Positions 31,744 to 39,922 of a stretch of DNA of 64,000 bases are shown in pieces. The position numbers and the translations under genes were made by a program. Every line of letters starts with the position of its first letter. Within the stretch, counting starts at the first letter, position 1. The stretch comes from Fusobacteria bacterium ZRK30 (GTDB lineage Bacteria; Fusobacteriota; Fusobacteriia; Fusobacteriales; Fusobacteriaceae), in contig CP102405.1 of the NCBI GenBank assembly GCA_024628785.1, positions 1,860,001 through 1,924,000 on the forward strand. The letters are read 5' to 3'. The notes beneath the pieces were generated by a model. The model worked only from the letters and a program-made list of their open reading frames with translations. It had not been told where the DNA came from and did not search any database.

Positions 31744-32892
31744 TTAGATAATATTTCCTTTAAAAAAGTTATGAGAAACTATTGTAACTGCACCTATAGT
31801 ATTATTTTTATGATTTAATTTGGATTTACTCAAATTAAGGTTTTTAAAAATAATAGGGAGACAAATTTTAGAAAGATTTTTTGTTAATAATTGGAAAAAA
31901 AGTTTTTTATTTTTACTAATATCTCCACCTATTATAACGTTTGAGATGTTAAATGTGTTTAGAAGATTTCCTAAGACAATTGCTAAAGAAAAAGTGGCCT
32001 CTTCTAAAATATTCAAGGCAATTTCATTACCGTTATTAATTTCAGTTAAAAAAGTGTCAAAAGTAATGTTTTCATCATTTTGCCTGGAGTTTTCTTTATA
32101 TTTTTTTAATAAATATGGATTAGCAATAACAGTTTCAAGACATCCGTATTTCCCGCATTTACATAAAATATTGTTATTCTTTACATAAGAATGACCAATT
32201 TGCCCGGCTATAAAATTATCACCTAAAAAAAGTTCGTTATTTATACAAATACCAGTAGAAATTCCATTATCTATATTGATAAAAAGAATATTTTTTAATT
32301 CACGATTGAAAATATCTTTTTCGGCAAGAGTCATAGCTCTAACATCGTTTTCGATAAAAATAGGAACATTTATTTTATTCTTGAGCAAATTTTCAAGTGG
32401 AATATCTTTCCATTGATAAAATGATGAGTAATTAATTGTTTTAGTAACTGGATTAACTTGAGCTGGTAAAACAATTCCTAAGCCTATTATGGATTTGTCT
32501 TTTGAAAATTTAAGATAAATTTTATTTATCAAAGTTACTAGTGTATCAATATTTTTATCCTCTATTTCCAAAACTATTTCTTTAAAAATTTTACCATTCA
32601 AATCATTTAGAGTTGCAATAAGACTTCCTCTTTTTATTTTAATTCCTATTATAAATTTATATTCTGGATTTAATAAAAGGTAAACTCCTTTTCTACCAAG
32701 TTTATTAGAACTTACTATTTCACTTTCTAAAATTACTTTGCTATTAATGAGTTCTTTTACAATACTAGAAACACTTCCAGCAGAGATCCCTGTACATTTT
32801 TGTAATTCTACTCTAGTTAAGTTTTTTTTATAAAGCTGAGAGAGAATGAGCCCTCTATTTATTTTTTTGAGTGAATTTAATTTTAATTTCAT
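31744..32892 (-). CDS. ROK-family transcriptional repressor (NagC/XylR type)
   Basis: 382 residues. N-terminal winged helix (about 15-70; KKNLTRVELQKCTGISAGSV) followed by an actin-like ROK domain with IGIKIKRGS, GIGIVLP-like loops and the zinc motif CKCGKYGCLE. ROK regulators sense sugars or sugar phosphates. It is divergent from the PTS IIBC gene with a 180-bp gap that holds a perfect 20-bp palindrome, so it very likely represses that operon. The inducer would be the transported sugar or its phosphate. Confidence 0.92.
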   Translation of the reverse strand: MKLKLNSLKKINRGLILSQLYKKNLTRVELQKCTGISAGSVSSIVKELINSKVILESEIVSSNKLGRKGVYLLLNPEYKFIIGIKIKRGSLIATLNDLNGKIFKEIVLEIEDKNIDTLVTLINKIYLKFSKDKSIIGLGIVLPAQVNPVTKTINYSSFYQWKDIPLENLLKNKINVPIFIENDVRAMTLAEKDIFNRELKNILFINIDNGISTGICINNELFLGDNFIAGQIGHSYVKNNNILCKCGKYGCLETVIANPYLLKKYKENSRQNDENITFDTFLTEINNGNEIALNILEEATFSLAIVLGNLLNTFNISNVIIGGDISKNKKLFFQLLTKNLSKICLPIIFKNLNLSKSKLNHKNNTIGAVTIVSHNFFKGNII

Positions 32893-32986
32893 AATACCAC
32901 CTAATTTAAATATAGATTGAATAATAATAGATCTGTTGTTATAGAGTATAAACTATAAATTTAAATTTGACTAGTAATAAAAAAAA

Positions 32987-33015
32987 TTGACAAATCTAAA
33001 AAAATAAAATATATA
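32987..33015 (+). promoter_or_regulatory. Promoter of the PTS/PHP operon
   Basis: Perfect TTGACA at 32987-32992, 17-nt spacer, TATATA at 33010-33015. The palindrome at 33032-33051 lies about 17 nt downstream of it, where a bound repressor would block transcription. Confidence 0.65.
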
Positions 33016-33031
33016 TATAATAACATAATAA

Positions 33032-33051
33032 TTATTTCAAGGTTGAAATAA
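33032..33051. promoter_or_regulatory. Operator palindrome, probable ROK repressor site
   Basis: TTATTTCAA-GG-TTGAAATAA, a perfect 9-bp inverted repeat with a 2-bp centre, between the promoter and the ribosome site of the PTS gene. NagC-type ROK sites are AT-rich palindromes built around TTTC/GAAA, and this agrees. Binding by the adjacent ROK protein is inference. Confidence 0.7.
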
Positions 33052-33072
33052 AATTGAAAAGGGGGAAAGAAA

Positions 33073-34461
33073 ATGAGTAAAAATGTGTTTTCAAAGTTAC
33101 AACTTTTAGGGAAATCTCTTATGTTACCAATAGCGGTATTGCCAGTAGCCGCTATATTACTTAGGTTTGGATCAGCCGATTTATTAGATGTTCCATTTAT
33201 AAAAGCGGCAGGAGGTTCGATATTTTCAAACTTGAGTTTATTGTTTGCAATTGGAATAGCTTTTGGAATAGCTAAAGGTAATCATGGAGCAGCAGGTTTA
33301 GCAGGAGCAATAAGTTTCTTTATAATAGAGGCAGGATCTAAGTCAATAAATGATAGTATAAAAATGGGAGTACTTTCTGGAATAATAGCTGGAATAATAG
33401 CTGGAAATATATACAATAAATTTGAAAATACTAAACTTCCAGAATGGTTAGGTTTTTTTGGTGGTCGAAGATTTGTTCAAATCATGTCAGCTTTAGTAAG
33501 TATAATAGCTTCTGGAATACTAGGTTATGGTTTCCCATTAATTCAAAAAGGAATAGATACACTAGGAATGTGGATGATAAAATCAGGAGAAATAGGTTTA
33601 TTTATATATGGAGTTTTACAAAGATTATTAATTCCTTTAGGTTTACACCATGTGCTTAATTCTATAGTTAGATTTTTGTTTGGAGAATATACAAATTCAG
33701 CAGGAGAAGTCTTTATTGGCGATCAAGTAAGATTTTTTGCAGGGGATCCTACAGCGGGAATATATATGACTGGAGCATACGTTGTAATGATGTTTGGACT
33801 TCCAGGGGCAGCTCTTGCAATGTATAAATGTGCAAAAAAAGAGAATAAAAAAATTATATTAGGAGTATTAATAAGCGTTACTTTAACTACATTTTTTACA
33901 GGTATAACAGAACCTATTGAATTTTTGTTTATGTTTTCTGCACCATTATTATTTATATTACACGCTGTATATATGGGATTGGCTTATGTGATTACAAATT
34001 CTTTAGGTATACTTCATGGATTTGGATTTTCTGCTGGATTTATAGACTACATATTAAATTTTGGATTAGCGACAAAGCCACTTTTATTGCTCCCTGTAGG
34101 CTTAGGATTTTTCCTGTTATATTATGTTTCTTTTACTTATATTATAAAAAAGTTTAATTATCAAACGTTGGGAAGAGAAGAGGTTACATTAAAAAAATCT
34201 GAAAAATTAATATCGGTAGATGAGGAAATAGATAATTTTATCTTAGCTTTAGGTGGGATAGAAAATTTTATAACTGTAGATTCTTGTATAACACGATTGA
34301 GATTAGATATGGTAAATAGAAATATTATAAATCTTGAATTACTAAAAAAATTAGGGTCTAAAGGAGTTATAAAACCTGGGCAAATGAGTGTTCAAGTAAT
34401 TTTGGGTGCAAAAGCTGAAAGAGTAGCTAATAAAATTAAAGAAAGAATAAATAAAATATAG
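33073..34461 (+). CDS. PTS EIICB permease, glucose/maltose/GlcNAc superfamily
   Basis: 462 residues: EIIC (about 1-360, 8-10 membrane helices; KLQLLGKSLMLPIAVLPVAA start and GITEPIEFLF near 275) fused to EIIB (about 385-462) with the phosphorylated Cys405 in DSCITRLRLD. There is no EIIA domain, so it must borrow a soluble IIA(Glc). It imports a hexose or hexosamine-type sugar and phosphorylates it at the inner membrane. Sequence alone does not give the sugar. First gene of the operon; GGGGGAAAG precedes the ATG. Confidence 0.93.
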   Translation: MSKNVFSKLQLLGKSLMLPIAVLPVAAILLRFGSADLLDVPFIKAAGGSIFSNLSLLFAIGIAFGIAKGNHGAAGLAGAISFFIIEAGSKSINDSIKMGVLSGIIAGIIAGNIYNKFENTKLPEWLGFFGGRRFVQIMSALVSIIASGILGYGFPLIQKGIDTLGMWMIKSGEIGLFIYGVLQRLLIPLGLHHVLNSIVRFLFGEYTNSAGEVFIGDQVRFFAGDPTAGIYMTGAYVVMMFGLPGAALAMYKCAKKENKKIILGVLISVTLTTFFTGITEPIEFLFMFSAPLLFILHAVYMGLAYVITNSLGILHGFGFSAGFIDYILNFGLATKPLLLLPVGLGFFLLYYVSFTYIIKKFNYQTLGREEVTLKKSEKLISVDEEIDNFILALGGIENFITVDSCITRLRLDMVNRNIINLELLKKLGSKGVIKPGQMSVQVILGAKAERVANKIKERINKI

Positions 34462-34471
34462 GAGTGAGAAG

Positions 34472-36010
34472 ATGAAGTTATTGTGGTGTGATTTACATGC
34501 GAATATACATTCTGAGCAATTAAAAGAAATAGATAAATGGTATAACTTTTCTAAGGAGATGACAGATTTTTGGCCAATTGCTTATTATCCATTTTATATG
34601 AGAAAGGACAGTTCAGGATTAGGTTTAGAAGATATACACAAGAAGTGTACTAGAGATTCCGATTGGGAAAAATTAAGAAAATTTGTAAATGAAAAATCCA
34701 CAAAAGACCATTTATTATTTATGGGATATGAGTGGCAGGGAGCAGGATTAGATGGAGATCATAATGTATTTTATTTAGAAAATAATGAGAATTTACATGC
34801 TCCAATGAGGTATAAAGAGTTAATAGAAAAAATTCCATTAGGGAAATCTATAGCGATTCCTCATCACCTAGCATACTCTTCAGGAAATAGAGGGAAAAAT
34901 TGGGAAACTCATAATAACGATTATTCTCCATTTGTAGAAATATATTCCTCTCATGGAAGTTCAGAAAGCGATATTACTAATATTCATATGGGAAGGCATG
35001 TTCATATGGGACCTAGAACATCAGGGAATGATGTAATGTCAGGATTAAAAAAAGGAGCTCTTGTAGGAGTTATAGCTTCAGGAGACAATCATGTAGTTCC
35101 GGCTATGTATGGGCATGGATTGATGGCGTGCTATGCTAAAGAGTATTCTAAAGAGGCAATTTTTGATGCTTTTCTTAATAGGAGGGTTTATGGTGTAACA
35201 GGTAGTAAAACGAAGTTATATTATGAAATAAATGGGAATCCAATGGGAAGTGTGGTAGAGGAGAGTAAAGAAGGCTATCAAAATAAAGTTGAAGTTGAAT
35301 GTGGAAATGCTATAGATCGAATAGAATTTATTAGAAACGGAATTATAGAGCATACATATGTTCATAATGGAACTTGGGAAGAAAAAAAATTACCAAATAA
35401 AGTAAAATTTAAATTTAAGCTTGAATTTGGTTGGGGACCAGATTTAAGAGTTTATCCAAATTTAACTACAAAAATTTGGAATGGGAAGGTAGAAACAGAT
35501 GGGGAAATTATTTCAGTAGAAAAATTATGGACCAGCCCAGGACAAAAGATATTATCTAGTAATAAAAATAATTGTTCTTTTGAGTTAACTACTAGAAAAA
35601 CTACTCAAACTGGAAAGTGGATGGGAAGTTCTGGCATACAAACAGAAGGATTTATTTTTGAAGTAGAAACTGATATTAATTCAAAAATAACATTTATGGT
35701 AGATAGAAAAAAATATGAATATAGTGTTTCAGAAATACTAGAAGGAAGTATTCTTAATGGGTTAATGGAGGAAGCTAGAGAATTAACTTTTGATACATGG
35801 GGAATAAGTGAATACTATAGATCGGATCCATTTTGGCATAATGCTTATAAATTTAAGATAAATCAAGGATTTATAGAAGAAGCATATAAAAAAGAATATA
35901 CATATGAAACAAATCTATTAAAAAGTAATAAAGACTTTTTTATGGTGAAAATACATCAAAAAAATGGTGAAATAGCTTGGTCTTCTCCAATATGGATAGA
36001 GAAAAAATAG
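34472..36010 (+). CDS. PHP-domain metallohydrolase-like protein, unknown reaction
   Basis: 512 residues, starting 10 bp after the PTS gene with its own AGGAGTG site. The first 240 residues keep the PHP-fold metal ligands in order: Asp7 and His9 (DLHAN, where the usual second His is Asn11, with His13 two further on), Glu87 (GYEW), His131/His132 (PHH), Glu156, His161 (SSHGS), Asp205 and His207 (GDNH). Residues about 260-512 are a beta-rich domain (NKVEVECGNAIDRIEFIRNG). It resembles DUF3604-type proteins. No signal peptide, so it is cytoplasmic and probably acts on the PTS product or something derived from it. Confidence 0.75.
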   Translation: MKLLWCDLHANIHSEQLKEIDKWYNFSKEMTDFWPIAYYPFYMRKDSSGLGLEDIHKKCTRDSDWEKLRKFVNEKSTKDHLLFMGYEWQGAGLDGDHNVFYLENNENLHAPMRYKELIEKIPLGKSIAIPHHLAYSSGNRGKNWETHNNDYSPFVEIYSSHGSSESDITNIHMGRHVHMGPRTSGNDVMSGLKKGALVGVIASGDNHVVPAMYGHGLMACYAKEYSKEAIFDAFLNRRVYGVTGSKTKLYYEINGNPMGSVVEESKEGYQNKVEVECGNAIDRIEFIRNGIIEHTYVHNGTWEEKKLPNKVKFKFKLEFGWGPDLRVYPNLTTKIWNGKVETDGEIISVEKLWTSPGQKILSSNKNNCSFELTTRKTTQTGKWMGSSGIQTEGFIFEVETDINSKITFMVDRKKYEYSVSEILEGSILNGLMEEARELTFDTWGISEYYRSDPFWHNAYKFKINQGFIEEAYKKEYTYETNLLKSNKDFFMVKIHQKNGEIAWSSPIWIEKK

Positions 36011-36064
36011 TACAGAAAAATTTATTAGAGGTATTGTCGAAATAATTACTTTTAAATATTATTT

Positions 36065-36097
36065 AAAAAGGTTAGAATTAATTTTAACCTTTTTTTA
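36065..36097 (+). terminator. Terminator of the PTS/PHP operon
   Basis: AAAGGTTA..TTAACCTTT with a T run, 55 nt past the PHP stop. Confidence 0.75.
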
Positions 36098-36179
36098 TCT
36101 TTCTTTAGAGAGCTCAATTACTTTCTTTTGATTAATTATTATGTTATAATGATTACAAAAATAGAAGTTGGAGGAAATT

Positions 36180-37046
36180 ATGAATAAATCAACCAAAAAA
36201 ACTAAACATTTAGGAGCACACGTTAGTGTTAGCGGAGGAGTTTTTAATGCCCCTAAAAATGCCTATGACATCGGCGGTACCGCCTTTGCAATGTTCTTAA
36301 AAAATCAAAAAAGATGGGTTGCTAAAGATTATGACGATAAGGTAATAAATAAATTTAAGGATGAGATAAAAAAATATAATTTTAACATCGATTATATCAT
36401 GCCTCATGCTGGATATCTTATAAATTTAGCTAATTCTGATCCTGAAAAATGGCAAAAATCATTGGATGCCCTGATCGATGAACTAAAAAGAGGGGAACAA
36501 TTAGGATTAAAATATGTGAATCTCCACTGTGGAAGCCATCTGGGATTGATTTCACTGGAGGAAGGCTACGATCTTATAGCTCGTGGAATCAATGAAGCTA
36601 TTAAAGCTACAGAGTACATCACTGTAGTTCTTGAAAATACAGCTGGTAAAGGAAATACAATAGGCGGAGACTTTGAGGAGTTAAAAGGAATTATAGATAG
36701 AGTAGAAAATAAAGATCGTATAGGAGTCTTGCTTGATACCTGCCATACATTTGACTATGGGTATGACTTAGCTACTGAAGAGGGATATAAAAAGACATTC
36801 GAAGAATTTGAAAACCTGATTGGATTTAAATATCTAAAGGGAATCCACCTAAACGATTCTATGTATGGATTAGCCTGTAAAAAAGACAGACATGAAAGTA
36901 TTGGAAACGGGATGTTAGGAATGGATTTCTTTAAAAGATTTATGAATGATCCTAGATTTGACAATATGCCGATTACTTTAGAAACAATAGATCAAACTAT
37001 ATGGAAAGAGGAAATAGAGCTACTATATAGTCTTATAACAGAATAA
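36180..37046 (+). CDS. nfo: Deoxyribonuclease IV (endonuclease IV)
   Basis: 288 residues, the family's normal size. It cuts DNA at abasic sites in base-excision repair. Metal ligands are readable: HVSVSGG start, HAGYLINLA, NLHCGSHLG, VVLENTAG, LLDTCHTFDYGYD, HLNDS and DRHESIGNG. The start at 36180 follows GGAGG; a 12-nt longer reading has no site of its own. Single gene with a shared terminator after it. Confidence 0.95.
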   Translation: MNKSTKKTKHLGAHVSVSGGVFNAPKNAYDIGGTAFAMFLKNQKRWVAKDYDDKVINKFKDEIKKYNFNIDYIMPHAGYLINLANSDPEKWQKSLDALIDELKRGEQLGLKYVNLHCGSHLGLISLEEGYDLIARGINEAIKATEYITVVLENTAGKGNTIGGDFEELKGIIDRVENKDRIGVLLDTCHTFDYGYDLATEEGYKKTFEEFENLIGFKYLKGIHLNDSMYGLACKKDRHESIGNGMLGMDFFKRFMNDPRFDNMPITLETIDQTIWKEEIELLYSLITE

Positions 37047-37148: not shown

Positions 37149-38318
37149 TTATTGTTTTTCGAAAGTTCCCTTAACTATAGCAACCTTATTTTCTACCATT
37201 ACCCTTCCTAAAGCCAGTACACCATCTATATCTAAATTTTCATCCAAGATAACCAGATCTGCATCAAAACCTTCCTCTATAAACCCTTTTCCCTTTAATT
37301 TAAATGTCGTTGCAGGATTAGAAGTAATAACCTTTATTATATCTTCTAATTTTAAATTCTCCTCTTCCATCCCTTCCTTTACAGCTTCATACAGGGTTTC
37401 ACACTTTCCTAGCTTAACCCCCTTAAAATTTCCCTCTGCATCATATTCAGGCAGACTTCCCTGCCCGTCAGATGTATAGGTAATCTGAGAAATGTCGATC
37501 CCTGCCTCCATACACAGTTTAGTGGCTTTTCCGCACTTCACCTCTCCATCGGCTAAGAATTCTGGTGTTGTAGAAGTCGTGAAATCTAAGTTACCCCCTC
37601 TTTTACCATATTTTAATGCTGCCTCAAACAGGTATGGGTTTCTATTCATATGGGTAGGCACAAATTGTTTAATCGGCAGTGCACCTTTATCAATAGCCTC
37701 TAAAAGCAGGTCTGTAACTTCATGACTATCTCCCATATGTACTCCTATGATTCCAGCCTTTCCAGATAGGATCCCTCCTAATCTTGTATCAGATGCCACT
37801 CTCAGCAGTTCATCTGATGTAGGATGAGAAGACCTGTGGTCTGCCACTGCTAACTCTCCACAGCCAATTACTTCCTCTATCAAGATGATATCATCTGTGA
37901 CCTTTCCCGTAAGAGTTCTCACAGGTATTTCATAAGATCCTGTAAGTACAAATGCAGATACTCCCTCTTCTTTAAGCCCCTTTGCCTTGGCTATTAAATT
38001 GGTCATAGTTCTTGTAGTCCCATCTGTCCCCAATACACCTATTACTGTAGTAACTCCGGCAGTAGTCATATCTGTTAACTGAATTTCAGGGGTTCTGGAT
38101 TTAAAACTTCCCTCTCCTCCCCCGCCACATATGTGTACATGGGAATCGATAAATCCTGGAACTATTTTCTTTCCTTTTAAATCAATTATCGTAGCCAAAT
38201 TTTCATCTATATCTATAGAACCCTCTATTTTTGCTATTTTGCTTCCTGCAATTAAAATATCTTTTTTACCGATATATTCCGGAGTATACACCTCTGCATT
38301 TTTTAATAACTTTATCAT
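37149..38318 (-). CDS. iadA: Isoaspartyl dipeptidase
   Basis: 389 residues from the ATG at 38318 (GGGGGAG ahead), close to the family's 390. It hydrolyses beta-aspartyl dipeptides in the cytoplasm. Amidohydrolase motifs: DSHVHICGGGGEG (metal His pair), the carboxylated-Lys region, HRSSHPT, IGVHMGDS and YTSDGQGSLPEYD (metal Asp). It follows a YfcC-type permease, and the pair would import and degrade aspartyl peptides or related amino acids. Confidence 0.93.
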   Translation of the reverse strand: MIKLLKNAEVYTPEYIGKKDILIAGSKIAKIEGSIDIDENLATIIDLKGKKIVPGFIDSHVHICGGGGEGSFKSRTPEIQLTDMTTAGVTTVIGVLGTDGTTRTMTNLIAKAKGLKEEGVSAFVLTGSYEIPVRTLTGKVTDDIILIEEVIGCGELAVADHRSSHPTSDELLRVASDTRLGGILSGKAGIIGVHMGDSHEVTDLLLEAIDKGALPIKQFVPTHMNRNPYLFEAALKYGKRGGNLDFTTSTTPEFLADGEVKCGKATKLCMEAGIDISQITYTSDGQGSLPEYDAEGNFKGVKLGKCETLYEAVKEGMEEENLKLEDIIKVITSNPATTFKLKGKGFIEEGFDADLVILDENLDIDGVLALGRVMVENKVAIVKGTFEKQ

Positions 38319-38403
38319 CTTCTCCCCCTTATCATAACTTAATTTCTTTTGATAGATCAATGTCATTTATAATTAACATTTTTTGCCTTAACTTCTTATC
38401 GAT

Positions 38404-38440
38404 AAAAAAAGCGAAAAAATCCTAAGACTTAATCGCTTTT
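38404..38440 (-). terminator. Terminator after the YfcC-type gene
   Basis: AAAAGCGA..TCGCTTTT in minus sense with a loop of about 18 nt and a T run, 6 nt past the permease stop. It probably separates yfcC from iadA. Confidence 0.55.
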
Positions 38441-38446
38441 GTTTAT

Positions 38447-39922
38447 TTACATCATTGAACCTAAAGCTAATAGTGCCATAGTCATTACTATAAATGCTAT
38501 AAATAGAGGCATTACAAATTTCAGCCACTTTGTATATGATACTCTTCCTATTGCCAGTCCACCCATTACTACTGCAGATGTAGGAGTAAGTAAGTTTAAT
38601 ACTCCTGACGCAGATTGATACCCGGTAACTACAACATTCTTTGCCAGCCCTGAAAATTCACCTAATGGAGCCATGATAGGCATAGATAGTGTAGCTAATC
38701 CAGAAGTTGAAGGAATCAAGAACGACATAGGCAGATAGAATAAGTATGAGATTATAGCAAATGCTGTAGATCCTACACCAGTTAATGCCTGCTCTCCCCA
38801 ATATAATACGGTATTTGTCATCCCACCGGCATTCATTACTATAGTTATTCCTCTAGAAATTCCTACAATAAGTGCTACTCCTAACAGGTCTCTGGCACCA
38901 TTTACAAATACAGATACAATCTCTTTTTCTTCCATTCCATATATTTTTCCAATTAACACAGATGAAACCATGAATAATACAGTCATCTCTCCAAACCACC
39001 AGTCACCAAGGGGAACCATTCCACCTAAGATACTTCCAATTACAGGTAGGTTGATAATAAAGCTGTTCATATCTTCAAATATTGTGATATTGAACTTATA
39101 AGCCCATGGGATTACTCCTAAGATCATTATTATAAAAGTCCCACCAAATATCCAGAGGATCAACGATCTTTTCCCTGTTAATTCTGGAGTTTCCTGCTCA
39201 TCTCCCCCTAAGAAATGATGTTCATTTTCTTTTTTCAGATCGTATACCAATGATTTTGTAGGATCATCCTTTACCTTTTTAGCATATCTCATAACATAAA
39301 ATATAGCAAAACCAAGTAAAACTACCATCATTAATAACCTTAATCCCAATCCATCTCCGATAGAGATCTCAGCGAATCCAGAAGCTATTCCTGTAGCAAA
39401 TGGATTTACTGTAGAGCACAGCACTCCTGTTCCTGCTCCTAACATGATTACTCCTACTGCTGTCAAGGCATCATATCCCGCCCCGATAAAAACAGGGATC
39501 AACAGTGGATAGAAAGCTATTGTTTCCTCTGCCATACCAAATGAGGTTCCTCCTGCTGCAAATATTGTCATTAGGATGGGTATCATTATCTTTTCCCTAC
39601 CCTTTAACTTTTTAATAACCTGTCCAATTCCTGCATCGATAGCACCTGTTTTCATTACTATCCCTAAGAATCCTCCGATTACTAATACAAATAATGCAAT
39701 ATCTTTCGCTTCATAGAATCCCTTTATAGGAGCATTTATTACTTCCCAGAGTGCTTGAGGATTTGACTCTACCACCTTATATGTCCCAGGAATTGGTTGT
39801 TTTGTCCCTTCTACATAAGCATATTCTCCCGCTGGAACTATCCATGTAAATACTGCCACTGCAATTATTATACTAAATAATATAGTATAAGCTGTAGGCA
39901 TCTGAAATTTTTTTTTTGCCAT
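38447..39922 (-). CDS. YfcC-family permease
   Basis: 491 residues, about 12 transmembrane helices. It begins with the family pattern AYTILFSIIIAVAVFTWIVPAGEY, has a Gly-rich loop FAAGGTSFGMAEETIAFYPLL near 125 and the mirrored LFYLPMSFLIPSTSGLATLSMP near 410. The family includes arginine/ornithine and other amino-acid or peptide carriers. Its position upstream of iadA points to aspartyl or other peptide uptake. GGAGGGAG precedes the ATG. Confidence 0.9.
   Translation of the reverse strand: MAKKKFQMPTAYTILFSIIIAVAVFTWIVPAGEYAYVEGTKQPIPGTYKVVESNPQALWEVINAPIKGFYEAKDIALFVLVIGGFLGIVMKTGAIDAGIGQVIKKLKGREKIMIPILMTIFAAGGTSFGMAEETIAFYPLLIPVFIGAGYDALTAVGVIMLGAGTGVLCSTVNPFATGIASGFAEISIGDGLGLRLLMMVVLLGFAIFYVMRYAKKVKDDPTKSLVYDLKKENEHHFLGGDEQETPELTGKRSLILWIFGGTFIIMILGVIPWAYKFNITIFEDMNSFIINLPVIGSILGGMVPLGDWWFGEMTVLFMVSSVLIGKIYGMEEKEIVSVFVNGARDLLGVALIVGISRGITIVMNAGGMTNTVLYWGEQALTGVGSTAFAIISYLFYLPMSFLIPSTSGLATLSMPIMAPLGEFSGLAKNVVVTGYQSASGVLNLLTPTSAVVMGGLAIGRVSYTKWLKFVMPLFIAFIVMTMALLALGSMM

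Follow-up and report, generated by a model that had tools for sequence, protein, structure and literature searches.

The window is a stretch of 64,000 nucleotides from Fusobacteria bacterium ZRK30, located on contig C2 of a 3.6-Mb Fusobacteriota genome (labelled G000). It contains an operon of two genes, encoding a glucose-superfamily permease (EIICB) of the sugar phosphotransferase system (PTS) and a PHP-type protein of 512 amino acids, next to a divergent gene for a ROK-family repressor. The features of the locus are as follows, with positions counted in the window.

31744..32892, minus strand: ROK-family repressor (NagC/Mlc-like), divergent from the operon (Pfam ROK, E 6.8e-49, and a MarR-type helix-turn-helix)
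32987..33015, plus strand: promoter-like site TTGACA, 17 bp, TATATA (read by eye)
33032..33051, plus strand: operator candidate TTATTTCAA-GG-TTGAAATAA (9+2+9; palindrome, shuffle test and recurrence in genome G033)
33073..34461, plus strand: PTS EIICB, glucose superfamily (PTS_EIIC, E 1.7e-64; PTS_EIIB, E 1.7e-8)
34472..36010, plus strand: PHP-type protein, 512 aa, DUF3604-like (Pfam DUF3604, motifs); proposed sulfamidase of N-sulfoglucosamine 6-phosphate (GlcNS-6-P)
36065..36094, plus strand: terminator-like hairpin with a T run (13-bp stem, z -2.3)

A preliminary description of this locus had been made from the sequence letters. Its divergent ROK gene, EIICB gene, 10-bp gap, 512-residue PHP-type protein and terminator were all confirmed by gene calls, profile matches and the hairpin. 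No third gene lies between the PHP open reading frame and the hairpin, which was not listed by a simple terminator scan because its stem is poor in G-C pairs. The regulator belongs to the ROK superfamily, with scores below the cut-offs of the NCBIfam equivalogs NagC (183 bits; cut-off 650) and Mlc (177 bits; cut-off 530). The promoter had been called strong, which is true of its perfect -35 hexamer TTGACA (32987-32992) but not of the -10 region, since the hexamer at 17 bp is TATATA (33010-33015; 4/6 matches) and promoter-like sites were not in excess over shuffles in a statistical scan. A TATAAT is also present, but 23 bp from the -35 hexamer. The supposed perfect 20-bp palindrome consists of two 9-bp arms around a non-palindromic GG centre. 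Arms like these with a G or C occurred in 0.7% of shuffles of the intergenic region, so the palindrome is more than chance, and in G033, a genome of another genus, an identical copy of its 18-bp core TATTTCAAGGTTGAAATA precedes the homologous operon. A genome-wide search of the window genome revealed no second copy, and the idea that a phospho-glycosidase or isomerase for the same sugar is encoded elsewhere under the same operator was rejected on this ground.

The PHP assignment of the 512-aa protein is based on motifs and on a match to Pfam DUF3604 of 26.8 bits (cut-off 20.4) in which only about 90 residues are aligned. Candidate metal ligands are D7xH9, E87, H131/H132, E156, H161 and D205xH207. 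In an alignment of 18-19 proteins, 34 columns are invariant across the window family and its B. finegoldii, clostridial and haloarchaeal relatives, including D7, H9, E87, D96, H131, H132, Y135, R140, W144, E156, S159, H161, G162, M179-R182, S203 and D205. No leader peptide was seen in the window protein, and it has no match to the sulfatase domain PF00884, placing it outside the formylglycine (FGly) S1 sulfatases. It also has no match to the CehA/McbA profile (NF038032; cut-off 80 bits), which its relatives from Maledivibacter (30.6 bits) and B. finegoldii (57.3 bits) match weakly over the PHP core. Among viral contigs, only one marginal relative was found.

Sixteen loci of close relatives of this protein (44-72% amino acid identity) were compared. 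PTS genes were present at 15 of them, in several genera of two phyla, and represent at least four PTS types: EIICB permeases of two clades, one mannose-type system and one sucrose-type system. The close PHP form was found in 12 of 98 Fusobacteriota genomes, window genome included. The Firmicutes carriers are Maledivibacter (two copies) and Gemmiger, and a Cetobacterium somerae plasmid carries a further relative (52% identity). The gene arrangements are listed below.

Window and G033: ROK / EIICB-PHP; the short contig of G037 has the same arrangement as far as it extends
G014 and C. somerae: RpiR / EIICB-PHP; in G014 a TIM-barrel gene follows about 400 bp further on
Genus g25 (G088-G090): EIICB-PHP-sulfatase-ROK-TauE
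Genus g5 (G019, G026-G029): GntR / EIICB-NanE-PHP-sulfatase
Maledivibacter locus 1: LevR-like regulator, mannose-type PTS genes, sulfatase-PHP-sulfatase
Maledivibacter locus 2: RpiR, GH4-PHP-EIIBC (sucrose type)-sulfatase; divergent ROK-like regulator and the anaerobic sulfatase-maturating enzyme (anSME)
Gemmiger: LacI-PHP-TetR, with no PTS on its 6.5-kb contig

That the PHP protein has partnered with four or more types of PTS speaks for an action on the imported substrate. At the window, G033/G037 and Cetobacterium loci it is the sole clear sugar-modifying enzyme linked to the PTS and should therefore suffice. The preliminary description had proposed searching for conserved PHP-PTS adjacency and would have given up its reading if no repeated link appeared; the 15 loci dispose of that objection. 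Its view that the PHP enzyme acts first on the PTS product is still the best reading, and its picture of a permease paired only with a PHP protein holds for part of the family, other branches having added a sulfatase, an epimerase resembling NanE (with its catalytic residues kept, judged by eye from the alignment) or a GH4 enzyme. The PHP gene occurs in one of the eight species covered from the window genus (G055-G061 lack it), indicating an accessory operon that may have been gained horizontally. In G028 (C1:2377635-2379151), the PHP gene is split over two frames and its neighbours look intact.

An FGly-type sulfatase is encoded in the same operon at 10 of the 16 PHP loci. These linked sulfatases have PF00884 and SGSH_C domains, an intact CxPxR motif and no leader peptide. 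Among solved structures they come closest to an exo-L-galactose-6-sulfatase, to S1_8 sulfatases and to human SGSH, which points to no single subfamily. Eight of the 98 Fusobacteriota genomes have the linked sulfatase, and every one of them belongs to the 12 PHP carriers (Fisher p 3e-9, uncorrected for kinship). The anSME adjoining Maledivibacter locus 2 is a true member of its family (495.9 bits; cut-off 441). TauE-type permeases adjoin sulfatases in genus g25, in G019 and at an ascorbate-type (Ula-type) locus, one of them confirmed by profile.

A full-length relative of the PHP protein was found in Bacteroides finegoldii by tblastn of plasmid records (27.9% amino acid identity over 512 aa, E 1e-30). 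The gene order there is SusC-SusD-DUF4995-HepC-sulfatase-PHP-ROK-MFS-DUF4962, in which the surface glycan-binding protein (DUF4995), PL12 (HepC) and PL15 (DUF4962) of a heparin polysaccharide utilization locus (PUL) can be recognized. This order is consistent with the B. thetaiotaomicron PUL for heparin and heparan sulfate (HS), in which BT4655 lies between the S1_11 sulfatase BT4656 and a predicted kinase, BT4654 (PMC9067506). Deletion of BT4655 cuts growth on heparin by about half and on HS by about a quarter, leaves growth on desulfated heparin unaffected, and leaves N-sulfoglucosamine (GlcNS) in the medium (PMC10154612). The protein has been termed a novel sulfatase family, biochemically uncharacterised and outside SulfAtlas (PMC10154612), and is not predicted to be FGly dependent (PMC11980591). 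BT4655 is represented here by the B. finegoldii gene, an equation that rests on PUL position; with this counterpart the window protein shares full-length homology and the invariant residues. BT4655-type members in Clostridia (L043-L047, L067) adjoin Gfo/Idh/MocA oxidoreductases and TIM-barrel or URO-D-like genes, some together with a sulfatase, which suggests a second sulfated-sugar pathway. A haloarchaeal member lies near a sulfatase, Gfo/Idh oxidoreductases and a formylglycine-generating enzyme.

The window EIICB is nearest to the N-acetylglucosamine (GlcNAc) porter family TIGR01998, with 533.2 bits against a cut-off of 553.2, and has no EIIA domain. The window genome encodes a separate nagE-nagB-nagA elsewhere, whose NagE scores 634.6 bits with the same profile. 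The possibility that the window PTS is the GlcNAc porter was rejected on both grounds. In the EIICB tree the permeases form two clades, both apart from the window genome's own NagE: one without a linked sulfatase (window, G033, G014 and C. somerae) and one with it (genera g25 and g5). NagB was present in all 13 PHP-positive genomes tested. The PTS phosphorylates O6, and a 6-sulfated sugar thus cannot be its substrate (argument in PMC5430744). An N-sulfate is compatible with PTS uptake; in GlcNS, O6 is free.

What the enzyme removes is probably a sulfate, and most likely the one on the nitrogen of glucosamine, rather than an ordinary ester, phosphodiester or lactone as envisaged in the preliminary description, because the PHP family fills the BT4655 position and adjoins sulfatases at most PTS loci. 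The operon can be read, with even confidence, as serving to take up and desulfate a sulfated amino sugar, with free GlcNS as the likeliest substrate. GlcNS would come from heparin or heparan sulfate broken down by other organisms. The ROK protein would repress at the 9+2+9 operator (33032-33051) and be released by a sugar or sugar-phosphate ligand. EIICB is predicted to import GlcNS and phosphorylate its O6, giving GlcNS-6-P. The cytoplasmic, metal-dependent PHP protein, with the conserved D-x-H, E, HH, E, H and D as putative catalytic residues, would then cleave the N-S bond to yield glucosamine 6-phosphate (GlcN-6-P) and sulfate, as BT4655 genetics, homology and gene neighbourhood together suggest. 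NagB, whose gene is present elsewhere in the genome, would feed GlcN-6-P into glycolysis. In other lineages the FGly sulfatase was probably added to remove a second sulfate, one that is O-linked, and a TauE/SafE permease may export sulfate from the cell. If PTS import of an N-sulfated amino sugar is indeed followed by desulfation of the sugar phosphate by a PHP-fold sulfamidase, a proposal whose chances we regard as evenly balanced, the protein would represent a new class of desulfating enzymes, coupled to group translocation, that occurs in two or more bacterial phyla and has relatives in haloarchaea and in the heparin loci of Bacteroides.

Several observations weigh against the GlcNS pathway. 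The window family and the BT4655 type form separate clades on long branches (100/100 support), and at 28% identity the reaction may have changed between them, so that the BT4655 reaction can be transferred plausibly but not securely. In the window family, Asn11 stands where the PHP motif DxHxH has its second His, and His13 is invariant. Searches of the PDB with single sequences and with a family profile gave nothing meaningful, no family member having a solved structure, and a structure model built from the window protein and two relatives was poor (pLDDT 51). Neither the NanE-like epimerase of genus g5 nor the GH4 enzyme of Maledivibacter locus 2 follows from GlcNS, and the SGSH_C sulfatase of other lineages could itself be the sulfamidase. 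The neighbours of the clostridial BT4655-type genes indicate that the PHP family does not serve GlcNS alone. Finally, no heparinase II/III C-domain (PF07940) was found in the window genome, and the sulfatase on its contig C5 is nearest to L-galactose/GlcNAc-6-sulfatases. The notion that this organism degrades heparin itself is thus not supported, and it would have to scavenge the substrate.

A possible but clearly less probable alternative is that the PHP protein is a sulfatase in the same type of pathway, acting at another position or on another sugar, such as 3-O-sulfo-GlcNAc/GlcN-6-P or a sulfated N-acetylmannosamine or galactosamine phosphate. The range of its PTS partners (both EIICB clades, the mannose-type system and the sucrose-type system with GH4) would suit such variety, as would the g5 epimerase and the nearby sulfatases, but the only member for which a phenotype is on record (BT4655, by position) acts on an N-sulfate. 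It is unlikely that the PHP protein removes a non-sulfate group (acyl, phosphodiester or carbamate, by CehA/McbA-like chemistry) and leaves all desulfation to FGly sulfatases. Phosphoesterases and carbamate hydrolases are indeed the PHP precedents, relatives match the CehA/McbA profile weakly, and an SGSH_C sulfatase is present at part of the loci; however, sulfatases are missing from window-type loci, GlcNS goes unused when BT4655 is deleted, and the linked sulfatase never occurs in Fusobacteriota genomes lacking the PHP gene. More doubtful still is a phosphatase limiting sugar-phosphate stress, or a regulator, rather than a step on the sugar's group. PHP proteins include phosphatases, and nagA and nagB provide a carbon path without the PHP protein, but its constant association with varied PTS types and sulfatases and its conserved active site speak against this, and a phosphatase would waste the energy spent by the PTS. 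Accidental linkage of a GlcNAc-like PTS and an unrelated DUF3604 gene, for which the patchy presence within the genus might be cited, is refuted for practical purposes by the neighbourhood conserved at 15 of 16 loci across several genera, two phyla and four PTS types.

Further sulfatase loci were seen in these genomes. In G090 (L091; C1:122000-141900) and G088 (L092; contig C38), a second SGSH-like sulfatase adjoins two permeases, one a PTS permease of the ascorbate type (Ula-like) and the other of the TauE type, and there is no PHP gene. In G090, the only contig reaching further, UlaD/E/F-like enzymes and another sulfatase follow. These loci appear to provide PTS entry for an ascorbate-like compound that carries sulfate. 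Contig C5 of the window genome (92 kb; L057 and L094, C5:16000-52900) carries EIICB with NanE, anSME, LacI, an ABC lipoprotein transporter, a beta-helix protein, sulfatases and a glycyl-radical enzyme with its activase, together a sulfated-polysaccharide island. One of its sulfatases matches an L-galactose-6-sulfatase with E 1e-138. Downstream of the hairpin in the window are an endonuclease IV gene (36168-37046) and, on the minus strand (37149-39922), genes for an IadA-like isoaspartyl dipeptidase and a YfcC-like permease, unrelated to the operon.

In the searchable literature, which leaves out most subscription papers, we found no description of PTS import of GlcNS, of PHP-type sulfatases or of a PTS-coupled PHP sulfamidase, and DUF3604 is mentioned there by a single paper. 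Genetics had already revealed the desulfating family (BT4655). What appears to be new is its PHP-type character and the existence of a cytoplasmic branch coupled to the PTS. The enzyme that removes the glucosamine N-sulfate of heparin in the main gut Bacteroides pathway has so far been placed by genetics only, and through the present locus its family is linked both to a PHP-type fold and, in other phyla, to PTS operons. The shared family suggests an undescribed bacterial route in which a sulfated amino sugar is imported with phosphorylation and its sulfate stripped inside the cell. If the GlcNS pathway is correct, the small set of folds known to support hydrolysis of sulfate or sulfamate would gain one more, and a sulfated sugar would join the PTS substrates, from which C6-blocked sugars are excluded while N-sulfated ones are chemically allowed. 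The question is directly testable, as the proteins are small, soluble and cytoplasmic and the predicted substrate is defined.

Among known systems, BT4655 of the B. thetaiotaomicron heparin/HS PUL, a glucosamine N-sulfatase by genetics, is of the same PHP-type family, as judged from the full-length alignment of its positional counterpart in B. finegoldii, is likewise not predicted to be FGly dependent and belongs to a heparin glucosamine context. The B. finegoldii protein has a Tat/lipoprotein-like leader, indicating export, and precedes a ROK kinase, whereas the window protein has no leader, is PTS-coupled, would act on a 6-phosphate and belongs to a separate clade, with the motif DLHxNxH instead of DLHNH. 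The S1_8 N-sulfoglucosamine sulfohydrolases (Pedobacter heparinus Phep_2826, human SGSH) perform the N-S cleavage of GlcNS proposed for the PHP protein, but they are FGly sulfatases of the alkaline phosphatase fold, and the window protein has no sulfatase domain. CehA/McbA proteins are PHP-type metallohydrolases weakly matched by relatives below the NCBIfam cut-off, and their known members hydrolyse carbaryl and similar compounds. In the streptococcal glycosaminoglycan cluster (PTS, UGL), breakdown products also enter by a PTS, and the mannose-type system at Maledivibacter locus 1 may be similar to it; in streptococci, however, unsulfated unsaturated disaccharides are imported and cleaved by GH88 (PMC5430744), and no PHP protein is involved. 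The NagE-NagA-NagB pathway for GlcNAc, controlled by NagC, shares with the proposed pathway a permease nearest to the GlcNAc porter, a ROK regulator, hydrolysis of the C2-amino substituent and the subsequent NagB step. The window operon differs in having a PHP enzyme where the amidohydrolase NagA would be, with nagE-nagB-nagA encoded elsewhere in the same genome.

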